A stretch of 64,000 bases of DNA, from positions 22,763-86,762 of IMG/VR virus record IMGVR_UViG_3300017917_003637. One strand, 5' to 3'. Source of the DNA: a virus. The notes under the pieces are model-generated. The model searched no databases. It was not told the origin of the DNA and worked only from the letters and a program-made list of their open reading frames with translations. The position numbers were made by a program, and so were the translations under genes. Below, piece after piece: positions 43,040 to 60,933 of this stretch. Each line of letters starts with the position of its first letter. Position 1 is the first letter of the stretch.

Positions 43040-43828
43040 TTATACTTCATACGTTATTTTTCTGTCATTAGCAAAATAATATTCCTTTTTAGCTGTTTGT
43101 AACCACCATTTAGCTTCAACTGGATTCATATTTTCTTTGTAATTCGCGAATAACGAATTAGGTCTCTGATTTACGTGTTTGTAACCAAATTTAGGTACTG
43201 TCATAACTTTAACATCTTTGAATGTAAGTCTAAGTAAGAACTCATAAATAAATGTTAACTTAATACTTGGTTTAAGTTTACCCATTTCTTCAAAAGTTGA
43301 TTTTTTAATAACCATACCATCAATGTTAAAGTTTTGGTAAGTTAACAAAGCATTGTTATCTAACACCCCTAGTTCGTCTGAGAAACTGTTAGCCCATACC
43401 GCTTCATTGGTAAACCCAATAAATTGACCTTGGGTATCAACATCAATTACAATAGGCATAAACAAGTCTACGTTAGGGTGAGCGGCTCTATATTCAATTA
43501 CGTTCTTAAACCAAATCTTTGCATATTCATCATCATACTCAAGCATTGAAATCCATTCAGATTTAGCAACAGACACACCATAATTAACTTGTGAACAAAA
43601 ATCTGTTTCACCATCATTTTCAGCCACAGTTACAATGTCTTTTATTTCACCAAAGTCTAATTTTTTAACATGCTTTGCAGCATCAGAACCCTTAGGTACT
43701 ACAATGATTAATTCATCTGGTCTTACAATTTGAAATTCAACACTTTTAATAGCATTGTCTAGAGATTTTTTTGTCACGTCATCTAATTCGTGTACAGGTA
43801 AGATTACTGATATATTACTTTTTTCCAT
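43040..43828 (-). CDS. Family-2-like glycosyltransferase
   Basis: A 262-residue GT-A fold protein. It opens with ISVILPVHELDDVTKKSLDNAIKSV, the nucleotide-binding strand and helix. It has a DXD-like EYDDE segment at about 97-101 and a later DGMVIKKSTFEEMGKL acceptor-side region. The layout is that of small GT2 enzymes that transfer sugars from UDP- or GDP-donors. It starts 5 bases after the stop of the next glycosyltransferase, so the pair is co-transcribed. Donor and acceptor are unknown. Confidence 0.8.
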   Translation of the reverse strand: MEKSNISVILPVHELDDVTKKSLDNAIKSVEFQIVRPDELIIVVPKGSDAAKHVKKLDFGEIKDIVTVAENDGETDFCSQVNYGVSVAKSEWISMLEYDDEYAKIWFKNVIEYRAAHPNVDLFMPIVIDVDTQGQFIGFTNEAVWANSFSDELGVLDNNALLTYQNFNIDGMVIKKSTFEEMGKLKPSIKLTFIYEFLLRLTFKDVKVMTVPKFGYKHVNQRPNSLFANYKENMNPVEAKWWLQTAKKEYYFANDRKITYEV

Positions 43829-43833
43829 ATTTA

Positions 43834-44982
43834 TTATACGTTTGTTGTTTCTTTTAGAGAATCTTCAAATTTCTCTAAAGTTATTTTTAATTCTGAAGTT
43901 CTATTTTCTATGATTGCATTATAAACATTAGTTGCAATTTGTTTTTGATTTTCCGCAGAATATTGACCTCTTGTTTCAGCCATACCTTCTAACAAATCAG
44001 ACGGTACCGCATCTTCCAACCAAATTTTTAAATAAGTTGCAATCAATTCAGGCATGTTTAATGTGGTATTGGTCCAAACACCGTTGTTTTTAACACTAAC
44101 TTCTCCGTTTGTTTCAACAGTTTCCATCCATTCTGGTAACATGTTAGGCATTTTACCAATTACTGGGGTGTTACATTCAATAGCTTCTAATGGGAATGTA
44201 CCGAAACCAGCTTGGTCATCAATCCATACTGCTAAACAACATTTTTCTAGTTCAGTAGCAAATTTTTCTCTAGGTAAGCCTCTTAATTCTTTAAAAGTAA
44301 CCCATTTGTAGATAGGGAATTGTAAATAGAATGATTTTGCCAATTTAGCCGCATCACCAGCGTTTCTAGTCAACACAGCAACAACTGGGATTTTAGGTTT
44401 ATTTGATGATTTAAAGTAAGAAGGGATAGATACTGGGACCACGTGAGTCATAACAGAAGGAAATAATGATTTAACATAGTTTGCTTGTTTTGTTGATGTT
44501 GTGATTACATCATTAAAGCCAAAATCAAAATCCCATCTCTTACCAATTGGTAACAGTTCTAACAAGTAATCATAACTTTGTGAAAAAACAATTTTTTTAC
44601 ATGGAAAACCTTTAACTTGGTCCATAATGTTTGAAAAGATTTCTGGGATAATAATGAAATCAGCTGGGGTAATCAATAGTTCTTGACCCTCAATAGATGC
44701 GTGTGGTAAATTAGCGTATTCTTCACCTAACCAATCAGCAATACCTTGTCCGTTTTCATCGCCTCTCAATTTGTAATCATTTTTTTCATGTAGGATACAT
44801 GCATTGTAGCCTAATTCATTTAAAATTTTCACATGTTCGTAGATATTTGCAATACCCGCTGTTGGGTTACCCTTGGTATCCAATGTGAAAAAGTACATTC
44901 TAAAGTTTTTGTTTTCTAAGTTCCCAATAACTTCTTTTAATTGGGAAATTTGTGTTTCAATTTGTTTTTTATTTTCTTCCAT
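43834..44982 (-). CDS. GT-B type glycosyltransferase-like protein
   Basis: A 382-residue protein with a short coiled-coil start (about 1-22) and then a Rossmann-like first domain (MYFFTLDTKGNPTAGIANIYEHVKILNELGYNACILHE). The second domain includes PVVAVLTRNAGDAAKLAKSFY and ends in the donor-binding motif AGFGTFPLEAIECNTPVIGKMPNMLPEW. This resembles the E-x7-E region of GT4 enzymes with one acidic residue retained. The coiled coil could mediate pairing with the neighbouring GT2. Substrates unknown. Confidence 0.78.
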   Translation of the reverse strand: MEENKKQIETQISQLKEVIGNLENKNFRMYFFTLDTKGNPTAGIANIYEHVKILNELGYNACILHEKNDYKLRGDENGQGIADWLGEEYANLPHASIEGQELLITPADFIIIPEIFSNIMDQVKGFPCKKIVFSQSYDYLLELLPIGKRWDFDFGFNDVITTSTKQANYVKSLFPSVMTHVVPVSIPSYFKSSNKPKIPVVAVLTRNAGDAAKLAKSFYLQFPIYKWVTFKELRGLPREKFATELEKCCLAVWIDDQAGFGTFPLEAIECNTPVIGKMPNMLPEWMETVETNGEVSVKNNGVWTNTTLNMPELIATYLKIWLEDAVPSDLLEGMAETRGQYSAENQKQIATNVYNAIIENRTSELKITLEKFEDSLKETTNV

Positions 44983-46028: not shown

Positions 46029-46901
46029 TTATTTGCTAAAAAATTTTATAATTTTTTGAAAAAAAGATAATTTACCCTCGTTGATAATTTGAGATTTAGG
46101 TGGTGTTGGTTTGACCGTTTCAGTTTTTTTCTTGTAGTTTGGATGTTCAAACAATTTAACAAAGTATTTTGTAAGTCTGTGTCTAACAATATCTTCTTCC
46201 GCAAATTCTACTATTGATACACCTTCCTCTTGTGGCAATGATTTAATCATTTTAACAATTTCACCTAACGAACTATCTTCTTTTCGTTTTAAGTCAATTT
46301 GGTTAGTATCACCTAAGATTACAACTTTGGTGTTTTCTGAAAAACGTGTAAGAAGTGTTTTAGCGTTTCCATCGTTTACGTTTTGAAACTCATCAAAAAG
46401 TAAAATACAGTTTGGAATTGACCTACCTCTAACAGAACCGAAGACTTCCATCTTAATGTAACCAACTTCAATTAATTTTGTTGTTAATTCTTCACCAATA
46501 AGCGTATAAAAAGCGTCTAAGAAAGACATCATGATAAATTTAAGTTTATCACGCTCATCTCCTGGCAATGTACCTAAGTCTTCATCTTTTAATTGAACTA
46601 TTGATTTGACTAATTTGATGTCGTGGTATTTGTCTGGGTTTGTTTTAAGCAATAAAAGAGCCTCAGCAACACTAAGAAGAGTTTTACCAGTACCAGCTGG
46701 TCCAATACAAACAGTTACATCACCATTTTTAATTGATTGGGTAAGCCTTTTTTGAGTTTCATTCTTATGTTTCAAATCAATTTTGATTTGTGAGAGCAAG
46801 TCTTGTTTTTCGTTGATTTTAGATTCAACTTTTGAGTTAACTTTTTTAGTTTTTGTGGTTCTAGTAGAACCAGATTTTGTTGCTGCTACTCTTTTGGTCA
46901 T
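46029..46901 (-). CDS. phoH: PhoH-like ATPase
   Basis: A 290-residue PhoH-family protein. It has Walker A GPAGTGKT at 67-74, a typical LGTLPGDERDKL loop, Walker B CILLFDEFQN and the sensor VVILGDTNQIDL. PhoH proteins are common in T4-like and marine phages; they bind ATP and probably RNA, but their exact role is not settled. The N-terminal 55 residues are Lys/Thr-rich and the C-terminal 30 are basic. An upstream ATATTTATT element and the small gap to the fucose genes suggest separate expression. Confidence 0.93.
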   Translation of the reverse strand: MTKRVAATKSGSTRTTKTKKVNSKVESKINEKQDLLSQIKIDLKHKNETQKRLTQSIKNGDVTVCIGPAGTGKTLLSVAEALLLLKTNPDKYHDIKLVKSIVQLKDEDLGTLPGDERDKLKFIMMSFLDAFYTLIGEELTTKLIEVGYIKMEVFGSVRGRSIPNCILLFDEFQNVNDGNAKTLLTRFSENTKVVILGDTNQIDLKRKEDSSLGEIVKMIKSLPQEEGVSIVEFAEEDIVRHRLTKYFVKLFEHPNYKKKTETVKPTPPKSQIINEGKLSFFQKIIKFFSK

Positions 46902-46924: not shown

Positions 46925-47860
46925 TTAATGTTTTATATTAGGATATGATTTTTCAAACCATTCAATTGTTTCTTTAATACCCACTTCAAAAGGCGTAAAT
47001 TTAAATTCTGGTAAATAACTTTTTATTTTTGAATTATCACTAGGTTTTCTATATTGACCATCTGGTTTACTGTTGTCAAACAAAACATTACCCTTAAAAT
47101 TCATTTCTTTTACAATTATGTCCACAACATTTTTTATTGATATTTCTTCCGAGGTTGATAAAATGATTGGTTCTGATTCGTTATAATTATCTAAAACCCA
47201 CAAAGCTAATTCTGCAACATCTTTTGAAAATATAAATTCTCTAAGTGGTTTACCTGAACCCCAAATAACCAAATCTGTTTTATTTTCTCTAGCCAAATAA
47301 CACTTATGTATTAATGATGGTATAACATGACCATTTTGTATGTTAAAATTGTCATTTGGGCCATAAATGTTTGTTGGGATTACCGAAGTATAGTTTAACC
47401 CGTATTGTTCTTTATACGCTCTTATTTGTACTTCAGCCATGCGCTTAGCATACGCGTATGCGTCATTAGAGGTGTGAGGCGCGCCTTGGTGTATTTTATT
47501 TTCTGTTAAAGGGTATTCTACGTTGTCTGGAAACACACATGTTGATAAAAACGCTACTAGTTTTTTAACACCGTGAGTTCTTGCTGATTCAATAACATTT
47601 GTATTCATCATGATATTATCATAAAAGAATTCACCCTTGTAATTCATGTTTCCACCAACACCACCAACTTTCGCAGCGCAATGAATAATTCGGTCGACAG
47701 CATGTTCTTTTTGTCTATCTTTATCGGTATAGAAACCAATAATCGAATCAACGGTTTTTTTATCTCTTAGGTCACCAACTTTTGATGTTATAGCGATGAT
47801 ATCACCTTTAAATTGTGAACCAACTAAACCGTTGGCGCCTGTAACTAATAATCTACCCAT
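46925..47860 (-). CDS. fcl: GDP-L-fucose synthase
   Basis: A 311-residue short-chain dehydrogenase of the GMER/WcaG type. It epimerises and reduces GDP-4-keto-6-deoxymannose to GDP-L-fucose with NADPH. The NADP site is GANGLVGSQ at 8-16. LSTCVFPDNVEYPLTE is the hallmark of this enzyme, and YAYAKRMAE gives the catalytic Tyr-x-x-x-Lys. The later GPNDNFNIQNGHVIPSLIHK is also typical. It directly follows the dehydratase gene (2 bases), so the two steps from GDP-mannose are encoded together. Confidence 0.94.
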   Translation of the reverse strand: MGRLLVTGANGLVGSQFKGDIIAITSKVGDLRDKKTVDSIIGFYTDKDRQKEHAVDRIIHCAAKVGGVGGNMNYKGEFFYDNIMMNTNVIESARTHGVKKLVAFLSTCVFPDNVEYPLTENKIHQGAPHTSNDAYAYAKRMAEVQIRAYKEQYGLNYTSVIPTNIYGPNDNFNIQNGHVIPSLIHKCYLARENKTDLVIWGSGKPLREFIFSKDVAELALWVLDNYNESEPIILSTSEEISIKNVVDIIVKEMNFKGNVLFDNSKPDGQYRKPSDNSKIKSYLPEFKFTPFEVGIKETIEWFEKSYPNIKH

Positions 47861-47862
47861 AA

Positions 47863-48840
47863 TTAACTTAATTTATTTAACCAATATTCTATCATTTCAT
47901 CTAACATAGTTTCGAAAGTATATTTTGGTTTCCAACCTAATACCGTTTTAGCTTTTGTAGCGTCACCTCGTAAAAAATGTAATTCTTCAGCTCTTTCGAA
48001 TTTTTTATCTGTTTTTACATAATCTGTAGGATTTAATTCTAGTTTATTAAAAACATACGATACTAAATCACTAACTTTTTTTGATTCACCAGTAGCTAAT
48101 ACGTAATCACTTGGTTTGTCTTGTTGTAACATAAGCCACATACCTTCAACATAATCTTTAGCGTGACCCCAATCTCTCATAGCGTTTAAATTACCCAATA
48201 CTAGCTCATTAGAGACCCCTAGTTTAATTTTTACAGCTTCAAGGACTACTTTGTTGGTCACGAAATTAATACCTCTCCTAGGGCTTTCATGGTTAAATAA
48301 AATCCCAGAACATATAAACATATCGTAAGCATTTCTGTAGTTATGACAAAGACTGTGAGCATAAAGTTTGCTACAACCGTATGGTGATACTGGTATCATC
48401 TTTGTTGTTTCCCTTTGAAAATAATCCTCATCACATTGATTACCATACATTTCTGAAGTCGCGGCGTGATATACCTTTGATTTAGGTGAAAATTTTCTAA
48501 CAGCTTCTAGTACAGCTAAAGTTCCACCAGCATTAACATCTAAAGTGTATTTTGGTAAGTCAAAACTGATTTGTACGTGACTTTGAGCGGCCAAATGATA
48601 TATTTCATCTGGTTTAATCTCATTTATAATCGATTCAACACTTATGGGGTCTGTAAGGTCCATATAGTGTAATGTTATTTTGTTTGATTCTCTTAGTTCT
48701 TCTATTCTAGTTGTTTGCGATTCTGGAACCGAATTTCTTCTAATAGTTCCATGGACAATATATCCCTTTTCAATTAAAAATTCCGCGATATAAGAAGCGT
48801 CTTGTCCGTTTGCTCCAAGTATTAAGGCTGTTTTATTCAT
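47863..48840 (-). CDS. gmd: GDP-mannose 4,6-dehydratase
   Basis: A 325-residue enzyme that converts host GDP-D-mannose to GDP-4-keto-6-deoxymannose. The nucleotide loop GANGQDASYIAEFLIEKGY is the GMD version. ATSEMYGNQ supplies the catalytic Thr/Glu, and SPYGCSKLYAH the Tyr-x-x-x-Lys. PRRGINFVTNK and WGHAKDYVEGMWLMLQ are family segments for GDP-mannose binding. The length is slightly below the bacterial norm of about 345-375. It overlaps the fucosyltransferase-like gene by 8 bases, showing coupled expression. Confidence 0.95.
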   Translation of the reverse strand: MNKTALILGANGQDASYIAEFLIEKGYIVHGTIRRNSVPESQTTRIEELRESNKITLHYMDLTDPISVESIINEIKPDEIYHLAAQSHVQISFDLPKYTLDVNAGGTLAVLEAVRKFSPKSKVYHAATSEMYGNQCDEDYFQRETTKMIPVSPYGCSKLYAHSLCHNYRNAYDMFICSGILFNHESPRRGINFVTNKVVLEAVKIKLGVSNELVLGNLNAMRDWGHAKDYVEGMWLMLQQDKPSDYVLATGESKKVSDLVSYVFNKLELNPTDYVKTDKKFERAEELHFLRGDATKAKTVLGWKPKYTFETMLDEMIEYWLNKLS

Positions 48841-49588
48841 ATTTAATAATTTTGTTACAATTTAATTTATAATTGGGTCCGACACATATTGGGTCCCAAT
48901 CGTATTTAAGTGATTTCCATTCTGGTAGAACAAACATATCTCCATGCCAAAACCTAGGTCGGTCATTATAGTAGATATTTTTTGCTTTACTTAAAAACCC
49001 AATCCACCAGCTAAAACTACCTTCACTTAATACCAAATTATTAAAATTTTTGGCAAAATCAATAGTTTCTAAAGGTGAGTTATTGTATATAGTTAAATTA
49101 AATTTGTTTGCTAGTTCTAAAACGTTTGGATGATTGGGTGTATCTGAAGTTATAAAACCACCTTTTGGGGATATTTTGTTTAACGCATCCGTATAATATT
49201 CAATAGGTAACATTTGTCTCTCACCATTTATATCCCCTATTCTATATGCAACAAATACTGAATCGCTTGGTTGATTAATATAGTTTAATGTAAATAAAGA
49301 TTTTATATCATGGCGATATTTCAAAATAAAATCTTTTAACTGATAATACCCAACAAATTTATAGTGAGCTGTCTCTATTTTGTCTGACTCTAAATATGTA
49401 ACCAAATTATTATCGTCTATTTCGATAATTTTATCGTTATGTTCGTAACCATTTATGACTGGTAGGTTAAAACAGTTTTCAACAATATTTGAGCTAATGT
49501 TCAACCCAAATTTTTTTGCAAAAATATATGCAGACACGTATTGAAATAGGTTATTACCTAATCTACCACTATAGTTTATTGAAACCAT
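48833..49588 (-). CDS. GT11-type alpha-1,2-fucosyltransferase-like protein
   Basis: A 251-residue protein. GRLGNNLFQYVSAYIFAKKFG at the N-terminus matches the GT11 opening (G-x-LGNQ-x-FQYA). VFVAYRIGDINGE corresponds to the GDP-fucose-binding H-x-R-R-G-D motif, with the His and first Arg changed. LSEGSFSWWIGFLSKA matches the S-x-FSWW motif. GT11 enzymes transfer fucose from GDP-fucose, which the two neighbouring genes would make. The altered binding motif leaves activity uncertain, but the context is strong support for a fucosyltransferase. It overlaps gmd by 8 bases and the next gene by one. Confidence 0.85.
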   Translation of the reverse strand: MVSINYSGRLGNNLFQYVSAYIFAKKFGLNISSNIVENCFNLPVINGYEHNDKIIEIDDNNLVTYLESDKIETAHYKFVGYYQLKDFILKYRHDIKSLFTLNYINQPSDSVFVAYRIGDINGERQMLPIEYYTDALNKISPKGGFITSDTPNHPNVLELANKFNLTIYNNSPLETIDFAKNFNNLVLSEGSFSWWIGFLSKAKNIYYNDRPRFWHGDMFVLPEWKSLKYDWDPICVGPNYKLNCNKIIKYE

Positions 49589-50415
49589 TATCTTTTTGAA
49601 ATTACAATATTATCTGGACCTTTAATGTTTTTGTTTTTTGCAACAATCAAACCATCATATGAATAACTTTCGTCTAAATTTGCAGAACATAATATATCAA
49701 AACCGTTTTTAATTAAAAATTCGATACAATTAGCATGTAGAGAATTCTCGTGTGTTGATATGAAAAAATAATCAATTCTATCGATAACCTTTGAACAACC
49801 CAACAACATTTCAAATTCATAGCCTTGAATGTCGGAATGACAAATCGCAACTCTATCTAAATTTTCTAATTCAAAAATTTTATTAACCGTTATAGTCGAT
49901 TCATTGTCATATGAGCTTACAAATTTATTGTAAAACGTTCCAGTCATATTATTTAAGTTAAAATTATGTTCACCAAATAACATATTGTTATAATCTGGTT
50001 CTACCAATATGTTTTTACCTTTAACTTCTTTATTAAACCACATAGAATAAAAACCCCAATAAGAACCCAATTCAATCATAACACTACCTTTTTTTATGAA
50101 CGGTAAAATGTCATTAAAAGCTTTTTCTTCTTGCGGTTCATGAACACCTTCATTCTCCATCAATAAACGCAACATACTATAACCATAGTAACTATTTTTA
50201 TGTATTTTAATTCCGTTATGTAAATAAAGAAAATCGTCTATTATTTTACCAGCAAACTCATGTTTTGGTATCAAAAGGTTATCACTACTAGCTTTAACTA
50301 ATTCTATTCTATTTAACCAATCTGTGCTACCAGAAGTACCATCAACATATTCTGGACTTCCTTTAATAGCTTTTAATTCAATGTTACTTTTTAATATAAC
50401 TTCTTCTAAGGTCAT
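49588..50415 (-). CDS. FkbM-family methyltransferase (1)
   Basis: A 275-residue protein with an SAM-binding start MIELGSYWGFYSMWF at about 112-126. It has the acidic ribose-binding VEPD after strand 2 and the FkbM signature HSDIQGYEFEMLLG. FkbM-type enzymes usually O-methylate sugars. The first 110 residues are a long extension of unknown role. Both ends overlap neighbours by 1-4 bases. Methylation of a glycan made in the same operon is the simplest role. Confidence 0.85.
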   Translation of the reverse strand: MTLEEVILKSNIELKAIKGSPEYVDGTSGSTDWLNRIELVKASSDNLLIPKHEFAGKIIDDFLYLHNGIKIHKNSYYGYSMLRLLMENEGVHEPQEEKAFNDILPFIKKGSVMIELGSYWGFYSMWFNKEVKGKNILVEPDYNNMLFGEHNFNLNNMTGTFYNKFVSSYDNESTITVNKIFELENLDRVAICHSDIQGYEFEMLLGCSKVIDRIDYFFISTHENSLHANCIEFLIKNGFDILCSANLDESYSYDGLIVAKNKNIKGPDNIVISKR

Positions 50416-51041
50416 TTTGTTATTATTATGTTTGTGTTATTATCATGTAAAACGTTTGTTAAACCAAATTGTTTACAATAGTTTAGTATTTTGTTTTTTA
50501 TTTCAGAGTCATTATTATATTCTATGATTAATATCTCACAACCAAACTCATTTAAGTCAATTTGACTTAAAATTTGGAAATCGTACCCTTCGATGTCTAT
50601 TGAAATTATTTCATATTTTTTATATAGTAATTTTTCTTTTATCTTATCAAAAACGTAACAATCAATTTCAAAACTATCAAAACCATTACCAGAGTTTGAA
50701 GAACCTAAATAGCTTTCCTTAGAGATAGTTGACAATAAATCTGAATCATTTTTATTCAAATGCGTTATATTATGATAAAATGTAAATTTTTCATTGACAT
50801 CGGATAGACAAACATTTAAACATTGAACCTTATCATTGTTTTTATGTAACTCTATTGATTTTTGAAATGGTATTGGTGCAGCCTCGATTAGTGTCGCGCC
50901 ACATCCGTTTTCAATAAAATGTAATGAATTACTTAATATTTTTCCATCGTTAGCACCAATGTCTAACACATTTCCAGTATATTTGTGTTTTATGTATTCT
51001 GAGACAACTTTGTCTTCGCCGTATTGTGAGTAATAATTCAT
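50412..51041 (-). CDS. FkbM-family methyltransferase (2)
   Basis: A 209-residue protein with SQYGEDKVV at the N-terminus, a common FkbM opening. The SAM loop is LDIGANDGKILSNSLHFIENG, and the conserved acidic motif SIDIEGYDFQIL is followed by the last strand EILIIEYN. It is shorter than the first copy and lacks its N-terminal extension. It sits in a chain of 3- to 4-base overlaps with its neighbours. The substrate is probably a sugar hydroxyl, by context. Confidence 0.88.
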   Translation of the reverse strand: MNYYSQYGEDKVVSEYIKHKYTGNVLDIGANDGKILSNSLHFIENGCGATLIEAAPIPFQKSIELHKNNDKVQCLNVCLSDVNEKFTFYHNITHLNKNDSDLLSTISKESYLGSSNSGNGFDSFEIDCYVFDKIKEKLLYKKYEIISIDIEGYDFQILSQIDLNEFGCEILIIEYNNDSEIKNKILNYCKQFGLTNVLHDNNTNIIITK

Positions 51042-51664
51042 CGTAAATTAGATTTATAATTAGTTTCAGAACCTTGTATTATTATTGGTGGTTCACAACA
51101 ACCAAAATTTAGATTTAAAGGTTCTTTTATTATGTTTAAATGGTTGTCAATATTTGTTGAAATTGGTTTTGAATATTCTAAAACATTTTTAAGTTTTTTA
51201 TTGTTAACTAAATAACCACTAACACATTTGCTAAAGTTAAATGGTTGTATGTGTTTTTTGTTTTGTTTTTCAACTACAATACCACAACATGTTGATAAGA
51301 AAATGAAATCAAAAGACTCTAAATCTTCTTGTAAAATTTCATTTATAATTAAATTAAAATTTTCATTTATAATCGCATCATCTTCTAAAATTAAACATAG
51401 ATTATAATCATTTAATACTATATCTTTATAAATTTCTAAATGTGATAATGAAACGCTTAATTCATTTATTGGTAAAGGTCTAGATAAAACGTTTGTATTA
51501 TAAAGATAAACCTCGTCTATCATGTCTTTAATTTTATTATCAGTCTCTTCATTTGAGATTATGTACTCAAAATTTTCACTAATTTTAGGTAAAACATTAT
51601 CCAAATAATTTTTACGTTCAATTAAAGGTTCGTAATGTACTATATATGTTTTATCTATTTTCAT
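51038..51664 (-). CDS. Family-25 glycosyltransferase (1)
   Basis: A 208-residue GT25 (LPS beta-galactosyltransferase-type) protein. It has KTYIVHYEPLIERKNYLDNVL near the start, LSVSLSHLEIYKDI, the metal-binding LCLILEDDA at about 88-96 and a C-terminal donor region with ISTNIDNHLN. These enzymes usually add galactose or glucose to an outer glycan. A second member lies at 56133. It overlaps both neighbours and belongs to the glycan operon. Confidence 0.85.
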   Translation of the reverse strand: MKIDKTYIVHYEPLIERKNYLDNVLPKISENFEYIISNEETDNKIKDMIDEVYLYNTNVLSRPLPINELSVSLSHLEIYKDIVLNDYNLCLILEDDAIINENFNLIINEILQEDLESFDFIFLSTCCGIVVEKQNKKHIQPFNFSKCVSGYLVNNKKLKNVLEYSKPISTNIDNHLNIIKEPLNLNFGCCEPPIIIQGSETNYKSNLR

Positions 51665-52409
51665 AACGATTAAAATTTAAAACGTCTTTATCAAAATTAC
51701 CCCATATTTTTTTATAAACATCTACAGAAAAATATGAAACGTCTAATTCTGACCAATCATTTAATACAACTAAAGGTAAATTTTTGTAAAAGTCAATATT
51801 AATTGATTTGGTGACTATAGGTATGGCACCAAGATATAAGGCTTCCCATGTTTTATGACAATCAACACCATTTCCGTTAGGTGAAACAACAAAATAACTT
51901 TTAGCTACCTCTTCTAAGTATTGCTTAAAAGGTAATTTATCAGCCATAAAAAGACCTTTTTTATTTAATTCAGAAATACAATAATTTCTCTCTTTTCTGT
52001 TTGTATTTACATCAAAATTAACATAAATTAACTTTTCTTTTACTATGGGTTTATTTAAAACCTCATTAAAAACATTTTCATCACCGTGAGGCCAAATTTC
52101 ATTAGCGATACCAATAGGTATTGATGTTAATTTATGATGAGTTGTCATAATGTTTTGTCCAAACCATTTAATTAGATTTGGGTCATCCATATAACGTAAA
52201 TAACTATCATCTACTGGGATATCACCATTATGTGTTACCAAAATATATGGTCTACTTTGTTTTTGACTAAAAAAATTATGGACATAATCAATTTTAACAA
52301 AAATTCTTAGTATTTCATCATTACTTGGTTCGCTATGTCTAACAAAACCATATTCATCTAAGGAATAATGACATTGTTTTTTAAATTTATTACCAGTTAT
52401 CAATATCAT
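51651..52409 (-). CDS. Exostosin-like glycosyltransferase
   Basis: A 252-residue protein. The second half contains YFVVSPNGNGVDCHKTWEALYLGAIPIVT, which resembles the donor-binding region of exostosin/GT47-like enzymes (SPxGxGxDxxRxWEAL). The first half has IPIGIANEIWPHGDEN. It overlaps its neighbours by 4 and 14 bases. Family assignment is by motif; donor and acceptor are unknown. Confidence 0.7.
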   Translation of the reverse strand: MILITGNKFKKQCHYSLDEYGFVRHSEPSNDEILRIFVKIDYVHNFFSQKQSRPYILVTHNGDIPVDDSYLRYMDDPNLIKWFGQNIMTTHHKLTSIPIGIANEIWPHGDENVFNEVLNKPIVKEKLIYVNFDVNTNRKERNYCISELNKKGLFMADKLPFKQYLEEVAKSYFVVSPNGNGVDCHKTWEALYLGAIPIVTKSINIDFYKNLPLVVLNDWSELDVSYFSVDVYKKIWGNFDKDVLNFNRYENR

Positions 52410-53131
52410 TCGTACAATAAATTAATTAAACTATCAATTTCTGATTTATATTGTTTATAAGGCCTTAATAAATGTGAATCAATATAATGACCATTTTTAA
52501 CTGAATTAGCATCATAACGCCATATAGCTCTATCTACTCGATTATTAGCAAATACAATAAAACCTCTATTCATTAACATAATCTTATCTTTATTTGGATA
52601 AGCATTTACCATATCATACAAATATCGTTGGTCTGATGTCCAACCGAAACCTAATTTTTGTATTTTATTTACAAAGTCGTCCCATTTTTCATCAATTTTT
52701 AAAACATCTTTAAATGTTTCTGGTTTTGCGATATTATAACACATTTGATATTCTAAATTTCTAAGACATTCTGGATTATCGGAAGTCATAACATAAAAAT
52801 TATTGTCATTAAATGGTTTGATATTATCAATAAAATATTGTTTAGACAATGGCACCATGTCAATATCAGATGTGATACAAATATCGTCTAATAAAGTTGG
52901 TAAATAAAACCTGACAATTTGTGATTGAAGACCTTCGTCTATACCCTCTATAGTTTTAAATTTTTTAACTAACCCATATTCGTCCGCAATAAAATCTGAA
53001 TCTTCATCGCAAATTAACCCTAAAACAGGTGTTATATCAAAAATTTCTTTCCAAGTTTTTGATATTATAGTCCAAAAGTCATAGTAAAGTGGGTTTCTAG
53101 TTGAACCCATGATTGCATATTTAATTTTCAT
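52406..53131 (-). CDS. GT-A type glycosyltransferase-like protein
   Basis: A 241-residue protein. It starts with a Rossmann-like strand (KIKYAIMGSTRNPLYYDFW), and the DXD motif lies in DDICITSDIDMVPLS at about 83-97. A later GFGWTSDQRYLYDMV resembles the acceptor side of small GT-A enzymes. The pattern occurs in phage and giant-virus proteins that are annotated only as putative transferases. Coupled by a 4-base overlap to the exostosin-like gene. Confidence 0.65.
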   Translation of the reverse strand: MKIKYAIMGSTRNPLYYDFWTIISKTWKEIFDITPVLGLICDEDSDFIADEYGLVKKFKTIEGIDEGLQSQIVRFYLPTLLDDICITSDIDMVPLSKQYFIDNIKPFNDNNFYVMTSDNPECLRNLEYQMCYNIAKPETFKDVLKIDEKWDDFVNKIQKLGFGWTSDQRYLYDMVNAYPNKDKIMLMNRGFIVFANNRVDRAIWRYDANSVKNGHYIDSHLLRPYKQYKSEIDSLINLLYE

Positions 53132-53132
53132 A

Positions 53133-53843
53133 TTAATTTCTATTTCTGTGGTGGTTTAAAATTTGTGATGTTATCATACGTCCTATACCATATTGTGATA
53201 TGTCTGGAATGTTTTTAATGTTATATTTTCTACCTAGTAAACTTAATATACTTTGGTCATGTCTGTGGTCTACAAATTCAACGTAATTATCTAACCCACA
53301 TTCATTAGGTGAATCGGTGATTATACGATAATCTTTAGCATAGGTTAACCATTCGTTTATGAAATTAAGAACAAAATCATTTTTTCTCATCAATATATAA
53401 CTGGCTAATAATTGATTTTGATTTAAATACTCTTCCTTGTCTAAACCCATAAGTACAAAACAATCTCGTTTTGTCCAGCGTTTATTCGGGTGAATATCTT
53501 CTAATTCAAACAATAATAATTTTTCTTCTGTTGTATCCATAATGTCGACAATCTCATCAATATTTTTAATAAATGAAATACCAGAATCAGAATACATTAA
53601 AATATCATTATCATCTATCATTTCTAGAGCTTTTTTAATTACAAATGGTTTCCACATCCAATACCCAGCTCCCCTAGTTTGTGACATAATGTTTTTATTT
53701 TCTAATAGAAATTCTTCACCTAAATCTTGTAAATTAAAAGAAAAAACGTTATCAAACTCACCAACACTTAAAGCGGAATTTGAATTTTCTTTTTGTGCAT
53801 TATGGTGTGATTTATCAGAATAATTAACTAAATGTTTTTTCAT
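53133..53843 (-). CDS. Glycosyltransferase-like protein (GYWMWKP type)
   Basis: From the ATG at 53843 the protein has 236 residues; a longer frame from a TTG at 53891 has a weaker start. Residues about 55-62 read GAGYWMWKPFVI, then DILMYSDSGISF supplies a DXD-like motif. FVDHRHDQSILSLLG is the C-terminal acceptor motif. This combination is shared by a family of putative GT-A enzymes that modify capsules or LPS. The neighbours are all glycan genes. Confidence 0.65.
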   Translation of the reverse strand: MKKHLVNYSDKSHHNAQKENSNSALSVGEFDNVFSFNLQDLGEEFLLENKNIMSQTRGAGYWMWKPFVIKKALEMIDDNDILMYSDSGISFIKNIDEIVDIMDTTEEKLLLFELEDIHPNKRWTKRDCFVLMGLDKEEYLNQNQLLASYILMRKNDFVLNFINEWLTYAKDYRIITDSPNECGLDNYVEFVDHRHDQSILSLLGRKYNIKNIPDISQYGIGRMITSQILNHHRNRN

Positions 53844-53898
53844 ATTTTTAATTCTATTTTTATGTATTTTATCTTTTTGACGCTGAACCAATATAATG

Positions 53899-54705
53899 TT
53901 ATGGTAAAATTTGTTTTAGTTTATTATAAATAAAGTCGTCAGCTATTAAATATTTTTTAGCTAATTCAAAATTGGTTTTAATCGAATCCATTTTAGAGTT
54001 GTAATAATTTTCGTCTAGTTGGTTAATAACTGAATTTAAATCATTTATATCATTTATTATAACCATACCATTTAAATCAAAAAATTCACCAATAGATGGA
54101 CACCCCCAATAAATAGGTATCGTTCCTGTTATAAAGGAATCTATCAGTTTTTCACTAAAATAATAATCTTTTTTACAATTTTCAATGACAATTGAAAAAC
54201 GATAATCTTTTAAAGCGCTTATTTTTTTTTCAATAGGATTATTAAAACCATATTTATCTATGTTTGTTATACTATTAAATATTAAGTGTCTAAACAAATG
54301 GCCAGAAGTGCTTTTTTTAGCTGATAAAATCATAGATATGTTTTTAGATTTATCGTGTATTTGTCTGTCTTCAACATCAATCCAACAACCACCATACGGT
54401 ACCAACACAAATTTTTCAGATATTGATAACAATGATTTATCGAAAGTAAAAATTAAATCAAACTTGTGATAATTATCCTTAATAAAATTATACGCAAATG
54501 AAGTTATTTCTGGTGACTCTAACAACCATGCAAACTTTTTTTTATTAGTAAAATTATCCACAAATTTTAATGAAAAATCTGTAAATATTAAATACTCTTC
54601 ATCGTATTTTCTAACCCAATCAAAATATTCTGGTTCATTATACCAGCTGCTAGATTTTGCATGTGAAAACATTGAATCGTGTATGTATAATTTATCTCTT
54701 GACAT
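53899..54705 (-). CDS. GT10-type fucosyltransferase-like protein
   Basis: From the ATG at 54705 the protein has 268 residues. Its diagnostic part is at about 165-205: DYRFSIVIENCKKDYYFSEKLIDSFITGTIPIYWGCPSI. This matches the GDP-fucose-binding C-terminal motif of alpha-1,3-fucosyltransferases (F-x-ENS-x-DY-x-TEKL...G-x-VPV-x-G). FAWLLESPEI fits the family's N-terminal motif. It overlaps the FkbM gene by 14 bases, and longer frame starts would overlap more. A second user of the GDP-fucose made by the operon is the likely role. Confidence 0.75.
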   Translation of the reverse strand: MSRDKLYIHDSMFSHAKSSSWYNEPEYFDWVRKYDEEYLIFTDFSLKFVDNFTNKKKFAWLLESPEITSFAYNFIKDNYHKFDLIFTFDKSLLSISEKFVLVPYGGCWIDVEDRQIHDKSKNISMILSAKKSTSGHLFRHLIFNSITNIDKYGFNNPIEKKISALKDYRFSIVIENCKKDYYFSEKLIDSFITGTIPIYWGCPSIGEFFDLNGMVIINDINDLNSVINQLDENYYNSKMDSIKTNFELAKKYLIADDFIYNKLKQILP

Positions 54706-55303
54706 AAAACGCATCACCCCAAGTTCCACCATCCCAAGTGGTTTCAACTCTTTCAAACCCATAGTTATTTAAAAAAGAATCAAGTTCTTCAATTCTAGCA
54801 CAACCTTTGTATAGTTCAGCTCTGTTAACTTCAGTCATAATGTAATCAATATGTTTAAGGTATTCGGAACCACCTTTAAACACTTCCAATTCATATCCTT
54901 GAACATCGATGTTTATAAAGTTAAATTTTTCTTTATCACTAATGAAATTATCTAATTTTGTGATTTTAACAGTTTCTTTACCGTTAAAGTGAATGTTAGG
55001 GTGTTGAACTAAGTGATACTCTGGCTGTAGAATCGAACTTGATTGACCATTATTTATTGTTTCGGTGAACATCTCAATTTCACCTTCAGTGTTACCTAAA
55101 GCCAAATTAAGTAATACAGCTTTATCTCCAACATTTTCTTTTAATTTGTTAAATGTTGATTGTACGGGTTCAAAAAACATAATGTTTTGAACACCTAATT
55201 TTTCGTAAGTATTATATTCTTGACCAACGTGTGCACCTATGTGTAGAACACCTTTGATTTTTAAATCATACTTTTTGGTTAAATTTTCTAAGTTTAATAA
55301 CAT
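54692..55303 (-). CDS. FkbM-family methyltransferase (3)
   Basis: A 203-residue protein. It has the SAM-binding GVLHIGAHVGQEYNTYEKLG at 19-38, MFFEPVQSTF after strand 2, and FNINIDVQGYELEVFKGGSEYL with the FkbM D-x-Q/E-G-x-E motif. The C-terminus is GFERVETTWDGGTWGDAFYVKR. Closest in layout to the second copy. It probably methylates a sugar or sugar acceptor of the same pathway. Confidence 0.9.
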   Translation of the reverse strand: MLLNLENLTKKYDLKIKGVLHIGAHVGQEYNTYEKLGVQNIMFFEPVQSTFNKLKENVGDKAVLLNLALGNTEGEIEMFTETINNGQSSSILQPEYHLVQHPNIHFNGKETVKITKLDNFISDKEKFNFINIDVQGYELEVFKGGSEYLKHIDYIMTEVNRAELYKGCARIEELDSFLNNYGFERVETTWDGGTWGDAFYVKR

Positions 55304-55305
55304 AA

Positions 55306-56133
55306 TTAATTAGTTTTAAAAATATATTTTATTTCTTTATGTGGGCCATTTACACCAGAAAAATCCAACATTTTTAAATCTATTGTTTCTCCTGATATAA
55401 ATTTATCATTTAATTCTTTTTCATGCACACCAAACTCTAATGCATGTCTGTTGTTAAAAGTGTTGTTTACCAAATTAACTGGTATACTTACCAATTTAGA
55501 TTCTATAAAACACTTAGTCATTTTAGGTATTAAATTTGAACCCATAAATTTTTGTAGGTTCGCTTCTAAAGTATTTGGGTTGTGAAAATTTATTTCTACA
55601 AGTAACTCTTTTATTAGTTTTGTGTTAAAAATATGACCATCAGTTGATAAAGGGTATCTAAAATCACCAATCTGTTGTTTTGTGTAATCAAAAATTATAT
55701 ACTCACCTTCTACTTCATGTTCACCTAAAACGTAGTTTATATTGGCTGGATGAGAATACACACAATTTAATCCAAGTCTCAAAGAAAATATGAAGTTATT
55801 TTCAATAACTGGTTTTATAATATCAACTTTTCTAGCCATTATTTTTCTAAAAATAACAGCATCATCAACCATAAATGTTGTTGCTTCTATATTATCATCA
55901 ATTAATTTAATCGTTTGGTTTTTAAAATTGTTTTCATTAACAAACAAAATGCTAGAGTATTTCTCAAACAATTTTTGATAACCAGATAAATATTCTTCGT
56001 TATCACATTTATATAAAACAGATATTTTATCAAACAACATTGGCGCATTTTCTTTGATGGAATCTAACAATAAATTTAATTGGCAAGCTCTGTTTTTTGA
56101 AAATATAATAACTTGATTTTTATAATTTTCCAT
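55306..56133 (-). CDS. GT-A type glycosyltransferase-like protein
   Basis: A 275-residue protein. The start NQVIIFSKNRACQLNLLLDSI is a typical nucleotide-sugar-binding strand and helix. TTFMVDDAVIFRKI at about 86-99 holds a D-D metal motif, and a later LSTDGHIFNTKLIKELL gives the acceptor side. The family is not certain; it resembles putative phage glycosyltransferases. The adjacent FkbM and GT25 genes are separated by 2 bases and one overlapping base. Confidence 0.6.
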   Translation of the reverse strand: MENYKNQVIIFSKNRACQLNLLLDSIKENAPMLFDKISVLYKCDNEEYLSGYQKLFEKYSSILFVNENNFKNQTIKLIDDNIEATTFMVDDAVIFRKIMARKVDIIKPVIENNFIFSLRLGLNCVYSHPANINYVLGEHEVEGEYIIFDYTKQQIGDFRYPLSTDGHIFNTKLIKELLVEINFHNPNTLEANLQKFMGSNLIPKMTKCFIESKLVSIPVNLVNNTFNNRHALEFGVHEKELNDKFISGETIDLKMLDFSGVNGPHKEIKYIFKTN

Positions 56134-56756
56134 TAATCTCTAAAATAGTTTGAATAGTCTACGTTACGATTTTGTATATCGCTAAAACCAGCAATTTGTT
56201 TTGCCATATTTGGGTAAAAACCATACGCATTAAATGTGTTATGTAATTCAGCGTAATACGCGTCAACTTGTTTTTTCATTTTAGGTAAAACCACTTCAAT
56301 AACATCAAACATTGAACTGTTGATAGCTACACAATGTAGAGCGACAGTATAGTTTAGTTTTAGTATTTTATCATTTAAAAGTTGTGGTGGCTGGCCATAT
56401 ACATGGTTACCACCAAAATAAATAAAATCCCAATCTGATGGAACTAAATTCATATATTCGTCTAATTTAGCAATTTCTGGTGTAAAATAAACATCATCTT
56501 CTAATATTAAAACGTTTTTCACGCCATCTTTTTTACATTCTTTTATAATTTCTAAATGACTCATAAGAACACCCGTTTCGCCAGCTAAAAGTGACGGGTT
56601 ATCAACTGAAATTGTTGTACCATCAATAGCAGAAAATCTCTGAATATTATTTATAAAATATTTAGAGATTTCATTGTTAAAATTTTCGTACCTATCTGGT
56701 CTTTTGTCCAAATTAATCACATAGACTCTATCAAAAAATTTTTTTAAGTCTATCAT
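56133..56756 (-). CDS. Family-25 glycosyltransferase (2)
   Basis: A 207-residue GT25 protein. It has DRVYVINLDKRPDRYENF at 9-26 (the VINL-x-R-R-D-R opening of the family), ETGVLMSHLEIIKECKK, the metal site VLILEDDVYF at about 84-93, then WDFIYFGGNH and ALHCVAIN. It is clearer in its motifs than the copy at 51038. It overlaps both neighbours, so it is coupled within the glycan operon. Confidence 0.92.
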   Translation of the reverse strand: MIDLKKFFDRVYVINLDKRPDRYENFNNEISKYFINNIQRFSAIDGTTISVDNPSLLAGETGVLMSHLEIIKECKKDGVKNVLILEDDVYFTPEIAKLDEYMNLVPSDWDFIYFGGNHVYGQPPQLLNDKILKLNYTVALHCVAINSSMFDVIEVVLPKMKKQVDAYYAELHNTFNAYGFYPNMAKQIAGFSDIQNRNVDYSNYFRD

Positions 56757-57700
56757 TTTTTAGCCGCTTTTTGTTTGTATTTGTTATCTAATTCTTCGAC
56801 TTTATGTTCGTCTAAAATATCCTTACCGTTGATTACCATTTTGGCTTTGAATTTTATAACGTAAAAACCATTAAACTCAATGATTTTATCAAACTCAATG
56901 TTTTCATAACGATACAATAAAAAATCTTCAGAACCTATAGTTTTGTATGTTAAAAACTCTACAGCATCAAAATCCGTAAAAGTTTCTTTTTTACCGTTCA
57001 TCACTTTTTTGATTGAAGATAAAAACAGTTTGCTATTTTTATTGTATTCATCTGGATATATACTCACATAAAACTCTAAAAGTCTTTCATCTTTTTTAAT
57101 TTTTCTAACATTTAACTTTTTAGTAAAATTCTCTATTAGGAAATTTGAAAAATCAGGTCTTTCAATTTTTATAGGTCTATCTCCTTTTTCAGTTATGCTT
57201 AATTCGTTAGCGCCTATTGTAGCATGACCAACACTGATTAAATTACCATTGTCATCATAGTTTTCCAATACACTATCTAGAATTGATAAGTGTTCATTGC
57301 CAAGCATATCTGTTGTGTTTAAAGCAATTTCTGAGTTGTCTAAAACCATTTCTAATTTATAGTCATCATGTTCATCTACTTTAATTTTTTTAAGACCAGC
57401 CTTAACATTTTTCTTAGTTGTTTTAACAATTGGCATATTGTCTTCATCATATCCAATTATAGTTGATTTTACTCCACCAGTCGCTTTAAGAATTTTGTAA
57501 GTTCTCCATTTTAAATTTAAAACTTCTTGGGTTATTTCACCGTTTACTAAAGAATCAGCTAGCTGACCTTGCGTATGTCTTTGTACTTTTGAAACATCAC
57601 TTTCTAGCGTTTCACCGCTTTGACCAAAAGCATTTTTTTCAACATTAGCTGTTGAAATCATAAATCTGGCGATTTGCCTTTTTATCCAATTCGTAACCAT
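56753..57700 (-). CDS. Unknown protein within the glycan operon (315 aa)
   Basis: A 315-residue protein. The N-terminal helix (WIKRQIARFMISTANVEKNAFGQ) is followed by a segment QLADSLVNGEITQEVLNLKWRTYKILKATGG. The rest is a strand-rich domain containing KIERPDFSNFLIENFTKKLNVRKI and LLEFYVSIYPDEYN. I have no family for it. It is embedded between two glycosyltransferases with a 4-base overlap and a 1-base gap, which suggests a role in the same process or as its acceptor protein. That is inference. Confidence 0.6.
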   Translation of the reverse strand: MVTNWIKRQIARFMISTANVEKNAFGQSGETLESDVSKVQRHTQGQLADSLVNGEITQEVLNLKWRTYKILKATGGVKSTIIGYDEDNMPIVKTTKKNVKAGLKKIKVDEHDDYKLEMVLDNSEIALNTTDMLGNEHLSILDSVLENYDDNGNLISVGHATIGANELSITEKGDRPIKIERPDFSNFLIENFTKKLNVRKIKKDERLLEFYVSIYPDEYNKNSKLFLSSIKKVMNGKKETFTDFDAVEFLTYKTIGSEDFLLYRYENIEFDKIIEFNGFYVIKFKAKMVINGKDILDEHKVEELDNKYKQKAAKK

Positions 57701-57701
57701 A

Positions 57702-59348
57702 TTACAAAATTTTTATATATTCATCAATTATTTGTGTCGCTACATTAGAACTTTTAAATTTGTCCAAATCAGCAGGGATATCATGTAGTTTTTTACCTAA
57801 AATATTACCTGTTTCATCAACATCGTAAATCCAACCTTTTTTGCCACACATCCAACCTTCTATAGTTGTTCTACCTAACAATATTCCAGCTGTTTCATCA
57901 CATTGATGAATGTATTTCTCAACATTTGCGGTTGGTTCGAAATATTTCACATGTTCTTGGTTGTTTATTAACGCGTCTAAATAAGTATCGTTTTTCTTAC
58001 CAACAACCCATAACTCTTCATTATTTTCTTTTGTTTTGTTGATTAAATCTTCAATAGTTTTTTGTCTAAGATAATCAATAGTCCCAACAAATAATATTCT
58101 TTTCTTAGACCTAGATTCATTTGTTTTAACTGGTTTAAATTTAGTATCATCTATTGGATTGTAAATAACACTAACATTGTTTTCATCAATACCAAATTTA
58201 TCAACAATATGTTTTTTTATTTCTGGTCTTATAGCGATATAATTCTTAATCTGTGGTGATAAAACTGGTTCTTCTAAGGATATTACTTCGGAGTGTATTG
58301 AACATATCACTGGTGTTTCTGGATAAAATCTTAGTAAATGTTCAGTTACTGGTTTGTGGTTTAAATGTATTATGTCAAAATTTATATCTTGAATTTTATA
58401 CAAAGTGTTTGGGGATGATGGTGTATTACCATTAGGTGTGTTTAACATCCATTTACCATCGCCTAATTTATAACCTGGTGGTTCTTGTATGTTGTACATT
58501 TTGATACCCAATTTATGTGACAAACTTAAAAGTGGTTCACCAATATGTGAACAAATCGAAACATCATGGCCTAGTTTTTTTAATTGCTTAGCCAATTCAA
58601 AAACATATAGTTCTGAACCAGTGAAATTAGTATAACTTAAACAACCTATTAGTATTTTAAGTTTTTGGTTTTTTCTAAGCGTTCTTTTAACGTTTGCTGG
58701 TAAATTATCTTTAAAGGTTTCAGAAAAATTGATTCTATTGGTTTCCCATGCTTCATTAGTCATCCCTATTGATTGGTGGTTGACTCTAACGACAGTGGTA
58801 ACACCAACTTTAACTCCTTTTAAAAAGTTTTCAAAAGAAAACGTTACATCATAAAAGTGAAACCCTTCAACAGTTTCGTTAAATGTGTTTTTAATTCTGT
58901 TTTTATGAGCAGCAAACCAAACACCGTCCACAACCACAACTTCTTCTAAATCTTGTCCTAGGTCATCACTGTAGGTTGATAACCACGTCTTACCCTCGTG
59001 CGTGTGCGCGACTCTACCATACATCTTAGACCTGTTTTCCCACCATTGCCCTGATACTGGCATGTTTTTACTTCCAGCCACGCCAATAATACCATATTCT
59101 GGGTTCTTGTCAAATAATTTAACTAATTTGTTACCCCATTGTTTGGTTTCTATGGTTAAGTCATCATGACAGAATACAACTATATCGTATTTCGCTTGTT
59201 TTAAGCCACGATTATACGCGTGGGTTAATGATTCACCATTGTTTATGATTTCGATTACCTCAACGTGTTTATGCAAGCCAGATGACTTAATTAAGTGTTC
59301 TTTGTGTTGTGGATTTGTTTGTCTTGTACAATATACTATACTTACCAT
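57702..59348 (-). CDS. Two-domain glycosyltransferase (GT2-like plus GT4-like)
   Basis: A 548-residue protein. About 1-220 is a GT2-like domain: VSIVYCTRQTNPQHKEHL, then NNGESLTHAYNRGLKQAKYDIVVFCHDDL with the metal-binding HDD, and EVVVVDGVWFAA. About 228-545 is a GT-B domain of the GT4 type: LKILIGCLSYTNFTGSELYVFELAKQLKKLGHDVSI, then VSVIYNPIDDTKF and KKRILFVGTIDYLRQKTIEDL. Its E-x7-E region is partly degenerate (GRTTIEGWMCGKKG). One protein can thus add two sugars. It lies between the purine gene and the other glycan genes. Confidence 0.85.
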   Translation of the reverse strand: MVSIVYCTRQTNPQHKEHLIKSSGLHKHVEVIEIINNGESLTHAYNRGLKQAKYDIVVFCHDDLTIETKQWGNKLVKLFDKNPEYGIIGVAGSKNMPVSGQWWENRSKMYGRVAHTHEGKTWLSTYSDDLGQDLEEVVVVDGVWFAAHKNRIKNTFNETVEGFHFYDVTFSFENFLKGVKVGVTTVVRVNHQSIGMTNEAWETNRINFSETFKDNLPANVKRTLRKNQKLKILIGCLSYTNFTGSELYVFELAKQLKKLGHDVSICSHIGEPLLSLSHKLGIKMYNIQEPPGYKLGDGKWMLNTPNGNTPSSPNTLYKIQDINFDIIHLNHKPVTEHLLRFYPETPVICSIHSEVISLEEPVLSPQIKNYIAIRPEIKKHIVDKFGIDENNVSVIYNPIDDTKFKPVKTNESRSKKRILFVGTIDYLRQKTIEDLINKTKENNEELWVVGKKNDTYLDALINNQEHVKYFEPTANVEKYIHQCDETAGILLGRTTIEGWMCGKKGWIYDVDETGNILGKKLHDIPADLDKFKSSNVATQIIDEYIKIL

Positions 59349-60347: not shown

Positions 60348-60348
60348 A

Positions 60349-60933
60349 TTAATTTTTACCAGTTGAACCAAAACCACCAGAACCTCTTTCTGTGTCCTCG
60401 TTTATTTCACTAACTTTATTAAGATTAATAACTCTTTTACCAATTACAGATGCAATAACAGCTTGCGCTATTCTGTCGCCATGATTGATTTCGAATAATT
60501 CATCACCTAAATTAATTAGGATAACTTTTAATTCACCACGATAGTCGGCATCGATTGTTCCTGGTGTGTTCAAAACCGTCACACCATTCTTAGCTGCCAA
60601 CCCACTTCTAGGTCTTACTTGAATTTCTAGACCCTCTGGTAATTCAAAATACAACCCAGTTGGAACGATAACTCTTTTACCGACTGGTACAACTAGCATT
60701 TGAGATAAATTAGCTCTCAAATCAAAACCTGATGACCCAGATGTTGCATATTCTGGGTCAGGGTTATTGGATTCGTTTTTAAAGTTGATTTTCATTTTAT
60801 AAAAATCATCGTTTGGTGCTATGTTAGCAATGTTTGCACCAGAGAACTCTTTGTTGAAGTCATCTTCAGTGTAAGGGTCGTTTGGGTCAACCATCTTGAG
60901 AACCTTTTCTCTCATTTTTTCAATATCGTACAT
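60349..60933 (-). CDS. dut: dUTPase with N-terminal extension
   Basis: From the ATG at 60933 (TAG-T-ATG after the upstream gene) the protein has 194 residues. The five trimeric dUTPase motifs are present: [11 protein letters not shown] (66-76), [12 protein letters not shown] (107-118) with the catalytic-pocket serine, [15 protein letters not shown] (121-135), GDRIAQAVI (152-160) and a C-terminal [12 protein letters not shown] arm. The first 45 residues are an extension not needed for the fold. It hydrolyses dUTP to dUMP, feeding thymidylate synthase (13-14 kb) and keeping uracil out of DNA. Confidence 0.96.

Follow-up and report, generated by a model that had tools for sequence, protein, structure and literature searches.

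The two donor enzymes of the GDP-L-fucose pathway, GDP-mannose 4,6-dehydratase (GMD) and GDP-L-fucose synthase (GFS, or GMER), are encoded by the chlorovirus PBCV-1, and the same pair is found in the window analysed here, a stretch of 64,000 nucleotides covering bases 22763-86762 of the 86,762-base IMG/VR virus record IMGVR_UViG_3300017917_003637. PBCV-1 is, however, a eukaryotic virus with glycosyltransferases of its own and a demonstrated capsid glycan, whereas such a glycan is only presumed in the window phage. Regarding bacteriophages, the records of P-SSM2 and S-CAM7 hold GMD, GFS and a GT11 gene in one cluster, that of S-SKS1 holds GFS with an annotated alpha-1,4-fucosyltransferase, and the isolate S-SCSM1 carries GMD, GFS and three fucosyltransferases (PMC9602691); polymorphic sugar clusters have also been described in cyanophages (PMC7824862).

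The cyanophage clusters (P-SSM2, S-CAM7, ACG-2014f and S-SCSM1) resemble the window in that a T4-like phage has GMD and GFS as neighbours, clustered with GT11 and further glycosyltransferases. That of P-SSM2 also includes an FkbM relative, and those of P-SSM2 and S-CAM7 are, like the window island, devoid of membrane export genes. However, the listed cyanophage donor enzymes are 37-52% identical to those of the window, no relative of its divergent GT11, bearing a YRIGD motif, was found in them by tblastn, and they form a different lineage. In the window family, the island occupies a fixed position next to PhoH, and its frame includes conserved glycosyltransferases. The original prediction held that a complete set of donor and transferase genes would be notable in a bacteriophage; such a set is not new, as P-SSM2, S-CAM7 and S-SCSM1 already carry the donor pair and fucosyltransferases. 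The fucose pathway alone is therefore not new for phages, and the window, from a large aquatic phage, extends a finding published for viruses that infect marine cyanobacteria to a new virus group.

The host recognition cluster of pelagimyophages (PMC7029224) is also similar, being a large hypervariable glycosyltransferase island at a fixed place in T4-like phages, but it lies between VrlC and gp14 and also includes tail fibres, while the window island, with sugar genes as its content, is placed between a GT2/GT4-fusion gene and PhoH; the pelagimyophage paper makes no mention of fucose. Moraphages are jumbo phages of aquatic environments, predicted to infect Bacteroidota, for which four core glycosyltransferase orthogroups have been reported along with variable islands that are left unexplained (PMC12619734). 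They share with the window family a large size, PhoH, dUTPase, a ClpA-like protein, core glycosyltransferases and variable islands, a likeness by gene content only; some relatives of the window differ in exceeding 307 kb. The family was left outside the moraphage assignment because glutamine synthetase, a moraphage marker, is absent from all 16 window-family records searched.

As read from its genes, the window belongs to a family of large T4-like phages, known here from metagenomic contigs alone (34 IMG/VR contigs, up to 369 kb), whose genomes have a hypervariable glycan island at a fixed site, and the GDP-fucose set represents one of the alleles of this island. The new and more interesting part of the finding is that one genomic slot switches between donor-sugar types, traded between distant relatives. 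It thereby becomes testable whether phage particles, in the manner of bacteria, bear variable surface sugars, and against whose recognition these would be directed. The content of variable islands is named as open work in the moraphage paper (PMC12619734), and the window island offers a concrete answer for one island of a similar or related lineage.

Donor enzymes and putative fucosyltransferases

The four genes of the original prediction were recovered at their places, all on the minus strand:

46925..47860, minus strand: GDP-L-fucose synthase (GFS/GMER, epimerase-reductase), 311 amino acids; PF01370 1e-48, NF047922 237.7 bits, PDB 4e5y
47863..48840, minus strand: GDP-mannose 4,6-dehydratase (GMD), 325 amino acids; PF16363 3e-114, TIGR01472 376 bits, PDB 1n7g
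48833..49588, minus strand: divergent GT11-type putative fucosyltransferase, 251 amino acids; PF01531, alignment A1, predicted fold
53899..54762 (start possibly 54705), minus strand: GT10-type putative alpha-1,3/4-fucosyltransferase; PF00852, PDB 2nzw, conserved residues

Their arrangement was also as predicted: GFS and GMD lie side by side, 2 nucleotides apart, GMD overlaps the GT11-type gene by 8 nucleotides, and the GT10-type gene is located about 4-5 kb upstream of the donor genes, in what is likely the same operon, because between 59348 and 46925 all genes run in one direction and either overlap or are separated by a few bases. In the profile search, all four proteins matched Pfam families (PF01370, PF16363, PF01531 and PF00852), the GT10-type protein marginally.

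GMD matches PF16363 with 382 bits over positions 1-332 of the 332 in the profile, its closest sequences in the PDB are the Arabidopsis and human enzymes (1n7g, E 2.5e-94), and the active-site residues T128, E130, Y154 and K158 (T/E and YxxxK) are all present. For GFS, the best PDB sequence match is human GDP-L-fucose synthase (4e5y, E 1.5e-93), with S106, C108, Y135, K139 and H178 aligned to the human STC, YxxxK and GHV motifs. Both enzymes score below the NCBI equivalog cut-offs, which are 500 bits for NF047922 (GFS) and 415 bits for TIGR01472 (GMD). Judging from the translations, the catalytic motifs of both are intact, and the conversion of GDP-mannose to GDP-L-fucose by the pair is strongly supported. 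GFS is also much nearer to the human enzyme (316 bits) than to that of E. coli (183 bits).

The claim that the phage makes its fucose donor itself stands only from GDP-mannose onward. No PF00483 nucleotidyltransferase was found in the window record or in the GMD-carrying relatives of 306 kb and 362 kb, so GDP-mannose would have to be made by the host; most fucose-type contigs are likewise without a nucleotidyltransferase, and contig G008, with GMD and GFS, does carry one of PF00483. A connection between the adjoining GMP reductase gene and the supply of GDP-sugars was weighed and rejected, as this gene is also present in relatives without fucose genes.

The PF00852 score of the GT10-type protein is marginal by itself (24.8 bits, cut-off 23.9). 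A PDB sequence search matched it to the alpha-1,3-fucosyltransferase of H. pylori (2nzw, E 2.3e-10) with the Y-x-x-E-K motif aligned, and E82, R158, E204 and K205 are invariant across ten phage GT10 homologues. Phage records with a relative number 22, and in 19 of these the match spans at least 80% of the query; one relative is an annotated GT10 in a cyanophage. The family alignment A2 makes an internal ATG start at 54705 plausible. The PHROGs database gave no match for GT10, and NCBIfam named neither the GT10 nor the GT11 product. A putative role in fucose transfer is assigned to this enzyme.

The GT11-type protein reaches 31.2 bits with PF01531 (cut-off 23.9, E 1.7e-7), with the motif AYRIGD where the canonical one is HVRRGD. 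In alignment A1 with canonical GT11s of related phages, the window copy keeps R116, G118, D119 and FxWW, that is, the first Arg, the Gly and the Asp of HxRRGD, its His being lost; a member of the same branch in locus L009 retains the His. Canonical HVRRGDY enzymes occur in related islands, and L006 and L009 hold both kinds. The AlphaFold2 model (predicted local distance difference test score, pLDDT, 87) found Arabidopsis FUT1 (AtFUT1) as its best PDB match in Foldseek (E 1e-4, template modelling score ~0.5, a moderate value), followed by WaaC, NodZ and POFUT, and the product is predicted to have the GT-B fold of the fucosyltransferase superfamily. This match came from fold comparison alone, the family profile giving nothing meaningful against the PDB. 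A pattern-limited scan for a bacterial source of the divergent GT11 gave seven distant matches (23-27% identity) and identified no origin. By sequence and model, this enzyme probably transfers fucose.

It is unlikely that GT10 and GT11 use other donors and transfer related sugars, the GMD/GFS pair then serving another enzyme. The altered AYRIGD motif, the failure of the scan to turn up a bacterial relative of this branch with more than 27% identity, the presence of WaaC, an ADP-heptose enzyme, among the GT11 fold matches and the occurrence of GT10 without GFS in L018, L027 and L052 would suit such a role, but GT10 retains the residues aligned with H. pylori FucT, both transferases co-occur with GMD, and a GDP-fucose enzyme ranks first in the GT11 fold search. 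For a donor-plus-transferase set for GDP-fucose in a bacteriophage, as originally predicted, the profile, motif and fold evidence agree.

A variable island with cassettes exchanged between divergent phages

The loci were compared by anchoring the 34 contigs on PhoH. On one side, the frame of the island consists of a GT4-like gene, HD, dUTPase, often GMP reductase, and the GT2/GT4 fusion; on the other, of PhoH, two small proteins, GT1-like and GT2 enzymes, the conserved protein 42302 and more conserved genes. The content between the frames varies from a few genes (L023, L040, L041) up to about 17 kb, and the 277 island open reading frames (ORFs), 258 from other loci and 19 from the window, fall into 96 clusters.

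Alleles with GMD and GFS constitute the fucose type. In L018 and L027, GMD is followed by PhoH with no GFS and with a short fragment resembling a DegT-type aminotransferase, an allele possibly leading to a GDP-4-amino sugar in place of fucose. A UDP-GlcNAc 2-epimerase allele is found in L050 (searched directly), with the same cluster in L040, L041, L043, L053 and L054, and a UDP-galactopyranose mutase allele in L008 (searched directly), with the same cluster in L017; further content includes nucleotidyltransferases, a cupin of the mannose-6-phosphate-isomerase type, GT61 and a PRK-like kinase. In L005, a contig of 51 kb, GMD, GT10 and GT11 are present and no GFS was seen, which seems lost or replaced because GMD runs directly into PhoH. 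GT10 or GT11 relatives are present in 10 of the 11 GMD-positive islands versus 1 of the 8 GMD-negative ones (Fisher p 0.001, a descriptive value, the islands being related; truncated L017 and L028 left out, near-identical L040/L041 counted once).

Identities differ between the flanks and a cassette formed by GT11, the RXYLT-like gene and a gene of no assigned function, u52406 (the latter two listed below). Between the window and the distant phage L006, flanking proteins are 42% identical and the three cassette proteins together 72%, while with the close relative L007 the values are 78% and 68%, respectively; u52406 of the window groups with that of L006 (75%) and not with that of L007 (62%). 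In approximately unbiased (AU) tests, the cassette data rejected the topology of the flank (p 0.0005) and the flank data that of the cassette (p 0.003), and the GMD tree follows the flanks. Therefore, divergent phages exchange the transferase cassette at this one locus, and GMD, beside PhoH, tends to stay in place.

The proposed glycan and its possible acceptors

The reading favoured here, its chances of being right or wrong appearing evenly balanced, is that the window holds the GDP-fucose allele of a swappable island and that a fucosylated glycan is made in the cytoplasm, most likely on virion proteins. During infection, GMD would convert host GDP-mannose to GDP-4-keto-6-deoxymannose and GFS would yield GDP-L-fucose, after which the GT10-type and probably the GT11-type enzymes may put fucose on a short oligosaccharide. 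Its core would be produced by the frame transferases (GT2/GT4 fusion, GT1-like, GT2 and GT4-like) and its variable part by the island GT25 and other enzymes, while FkbM methyltransferases may methylate or cap the glycan. All steps would be cytoplasmic, with at least one virion protein as the most likely acceptor and the island setting a serotype-like sugar coat of the particle; cassette exchange at the same site would replace one sugar type by another in an otherwise unchanged genome.

None of the 277 island ORFs resembled a flippase, polymerase, initiating transferase or oligosaccharyltransferase, and none had two or more hydrophobic segments in a hydropathy test, which as positive control did pick out both the flippase and the polymerase encoded in the O-antigen locus of E. 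coli K-12. By this test, the island corresponds neither to an autonomous O-antigen/capsule locus nor to a Gtr-type seroconversion cluster (GtrA/GtrB/periplasmic transferase). The absence of multi-pass membrane proteins from the island favours an acceptor in the cytoplasm, for which a virion protein is the simplest candidate; virion glycosylation has been published for other phages (Freeman 2023, as cited in PMC12619734).

The same glycan could instead be built on host surface polysaccharide, in the core or O-chain of lipopolysaccharide (LPS), using host carriers, and so block the adsorption of competing phages or stop released virions from binding debris, a serious possibility although we would expect it to fail rather than to hold. 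The GT25, GT2, GT10, GT11 and FkbM families are those commonly met in LPS synthesis, comparable clusters of cyanophages and pelagimyophages are usually read in this way (PMC7824862, PMC7029224), and the strong diversification fits a surface arms race. However, about 18 islands contain no flippase, initiating phosphoglycosyltransferase, polymerase, ligase or Gtr-type membrane protein, the block runs into genes of the tail/baseplate region and not into early genes (position being weak evidence), and a lytic phage has little time to remodel the surface of its host.

Fucosylation of the virion, the favoured reading, also has points weighing against it, as the placing of the acceptor on the virion is itself presumed. 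Two cyanophage clusters, of the kind read in the literature as host-surface, are also without membrane proteins, and because of this shared lack the membrane-protein argument does not cleanly split the virion and host-surface readings. GT25 enzymes are best known from LPS synthesis, and the phage enzymes could modify the lipid A core at the inner leaflet and leave its export to the host. In addition, the window GT11 is without the His of its motif, and transferases and donor genes are not strictly coupled, because GT10 is present in L052 without GMD and GFS, and GMD in L018 and L027 without GFS.

Phage DNA, a further acceptor named in the original prediction, is very unlikely to be decorated by these sugars in the manner of the T4 glucosyltransferases. 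Viral DNA-modifying glycosyltransferases are known (Pyle 2024, as cited in PMC12619734), but the thymidylate synthase-like gene carries the dUMP-type LPFN motif, no base-hydroxylating, hydroxymethylating or other base-modification gene was seen among the scanned genes, and the many different transferases and methyltransferases suggest an oligosaccharide; DNA was rejected as fucose acceptor on this motif and gene content. The thymidylate synthase (13091-14356, 421 amino acids) has extra internal sequence and is the only gene of its kind.

Tentatively, and with the balance tilting slightly against it, large T4-like phages of possibly Bacteroidota may own a serotype locus, a fixed slot whose cassettes, including one for fucose, are traded between divergent phages and set the sugar coat of the virion, much as O-antigen switching does in bacteria.

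Neighbouring genes, lineage and host

The sugar-gene-rich block spans ~63.2 to 43.0 kb of the minus strand, and beyond the four genes first listed it includes two GT25, a GT2/GT4 fusion, GT2, GT1-like and GT4-like enzymes, three FkbM methyltransferases and an RXYLT1/exostosin-like protein. The features of the island and its frame are:

43040..43828, minus strand: GT2-type glycosyltransferase, conserved frame gene (PF00535 2e-6)
43834..44982, minus strand: GT1/GT4-like glycosyltransferase, frame gene conserved beside PhoH (weak in Pfam alone; family profile against PDB 8xsg, a glycosyltransferase, E 1e-12)
46029..46901, minus strand: PhoH-like ATPase, downstream frame of the island and anchor for the 34 contigs (PF02562 9e-50)
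49588..50415, minus strand: FkbM-type methyltransferase a (PF05050 1e-7)
50412..51041, minus strand: FkbM-type methyltransferase b (PF05050 7e-12)
51038..51664, minus strand: GT25-type glycosyltransferase a (PF01755 1e-15)
51651..52409, minus strand: RXYLT1/exostosin-like putative glycosyltransferase (PF24785 1e-6, slightly above cut-off)
52406..53131, minus strand: conserved island protein u52406, no assigned function, in five islands, closest copy in the distant phage L006
53133..53891, minus strand: conserved island protein u53133, no assigned function, 80% identical to the copy in L006
54692..55303, minus strand: FkbM-type methyltransferase c (PF05050 3e-20)
55306..56133, minus strand: island protein u55306, no assigned function, in five islands
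56133..56756, minus strand: GT25-type glycosyltransferase b (PF01755 9e-13)
56753..57700, minus strand: conserved island protein, no assigned function, in 16 of 21 compared loci besides the window
57702..59348, minus strand: GT2/GT4 fusion glycosyltransferase, upstream frame of the island (PF13712 5e-34, PF13439 3e-16)
59352-60377: GMP reductase/IMP dehydrogenase-like, frame of the island, apparently split by an inserted ORF in L041
61934..63193, minus strand: GT4-like glycosyltransferase, conserved frame gene (PF13439 0.0016, below cut-off)

The u52406 protein had no match in Pfam, PHROG, NCBIfam or the PDB, and neither u53133 nor u55306 had one in the Pfam, PHROG and NCBIfam searches. The protein at 56753-57700, whose position within the block varies between loci, had no PDB sequence match, and its structure model is of low confidence (pLDDT 59.5). 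The GT2/GT4 fusion is present in nearly all compared loci reaching that position; it had no tblastn match in 50,697 phage records, nor had the other frame transferase searched.

The window encodes a T4-type portal (phrog_213, 1e-59), a major capsid protein (phrog_138, 3e-66) and a terminase (phrog_2, 1e-47), and by these sequences the phage is T4-like (Caudoviricetes). The terminase shares only ~29-30% identity with its counterparts in cultured phages, the closest of which include Flavobacterium phage immuto and Microcystis phage Mel-JY01. A Bacteroidota host is suspected for the family, the hints being the terminase matches and a promoter-like element, both weak. The promoter -7 box of Bacteroidota is TAnnTTTG; TATATTTG, which resembles it, is present in 4 of the 30 upstream intergenic stretches, where 0.33 would be expected, a weak hint to the host phylum, its sites being upstream of genes 1712, 8723-11227 (minus strand), 30508 and 60935-61495 (minus strand). 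A generic promoter scan of the window performed no better than on shuffles.

A second element, ATATTTAT, is found in 12 of the 30 stretches (1.2 expected; 2 on the antisense strand), mostly 12-28 nucleotides ahead of start codons, often those of structural genes, for example before genes 14943, 17659, 24905, 29089, 31026 and 37378-38781 (minus strand), and it is a candidate late promoter of this phage lineage. The product of the gene at 14943-17363 combines seven DUF285 repeats with a PKD-like stretch, and its N-terminal module recurs in a separate ORF of 80 amino acids (17659-17901), both genes having the late-type motif; this repeat protein is a possible fibre or particle decoration protein and glycan acceptor. 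The extended form of the second element, TATTTATA, is the reverse complement of the T4 late box TATAAATA.

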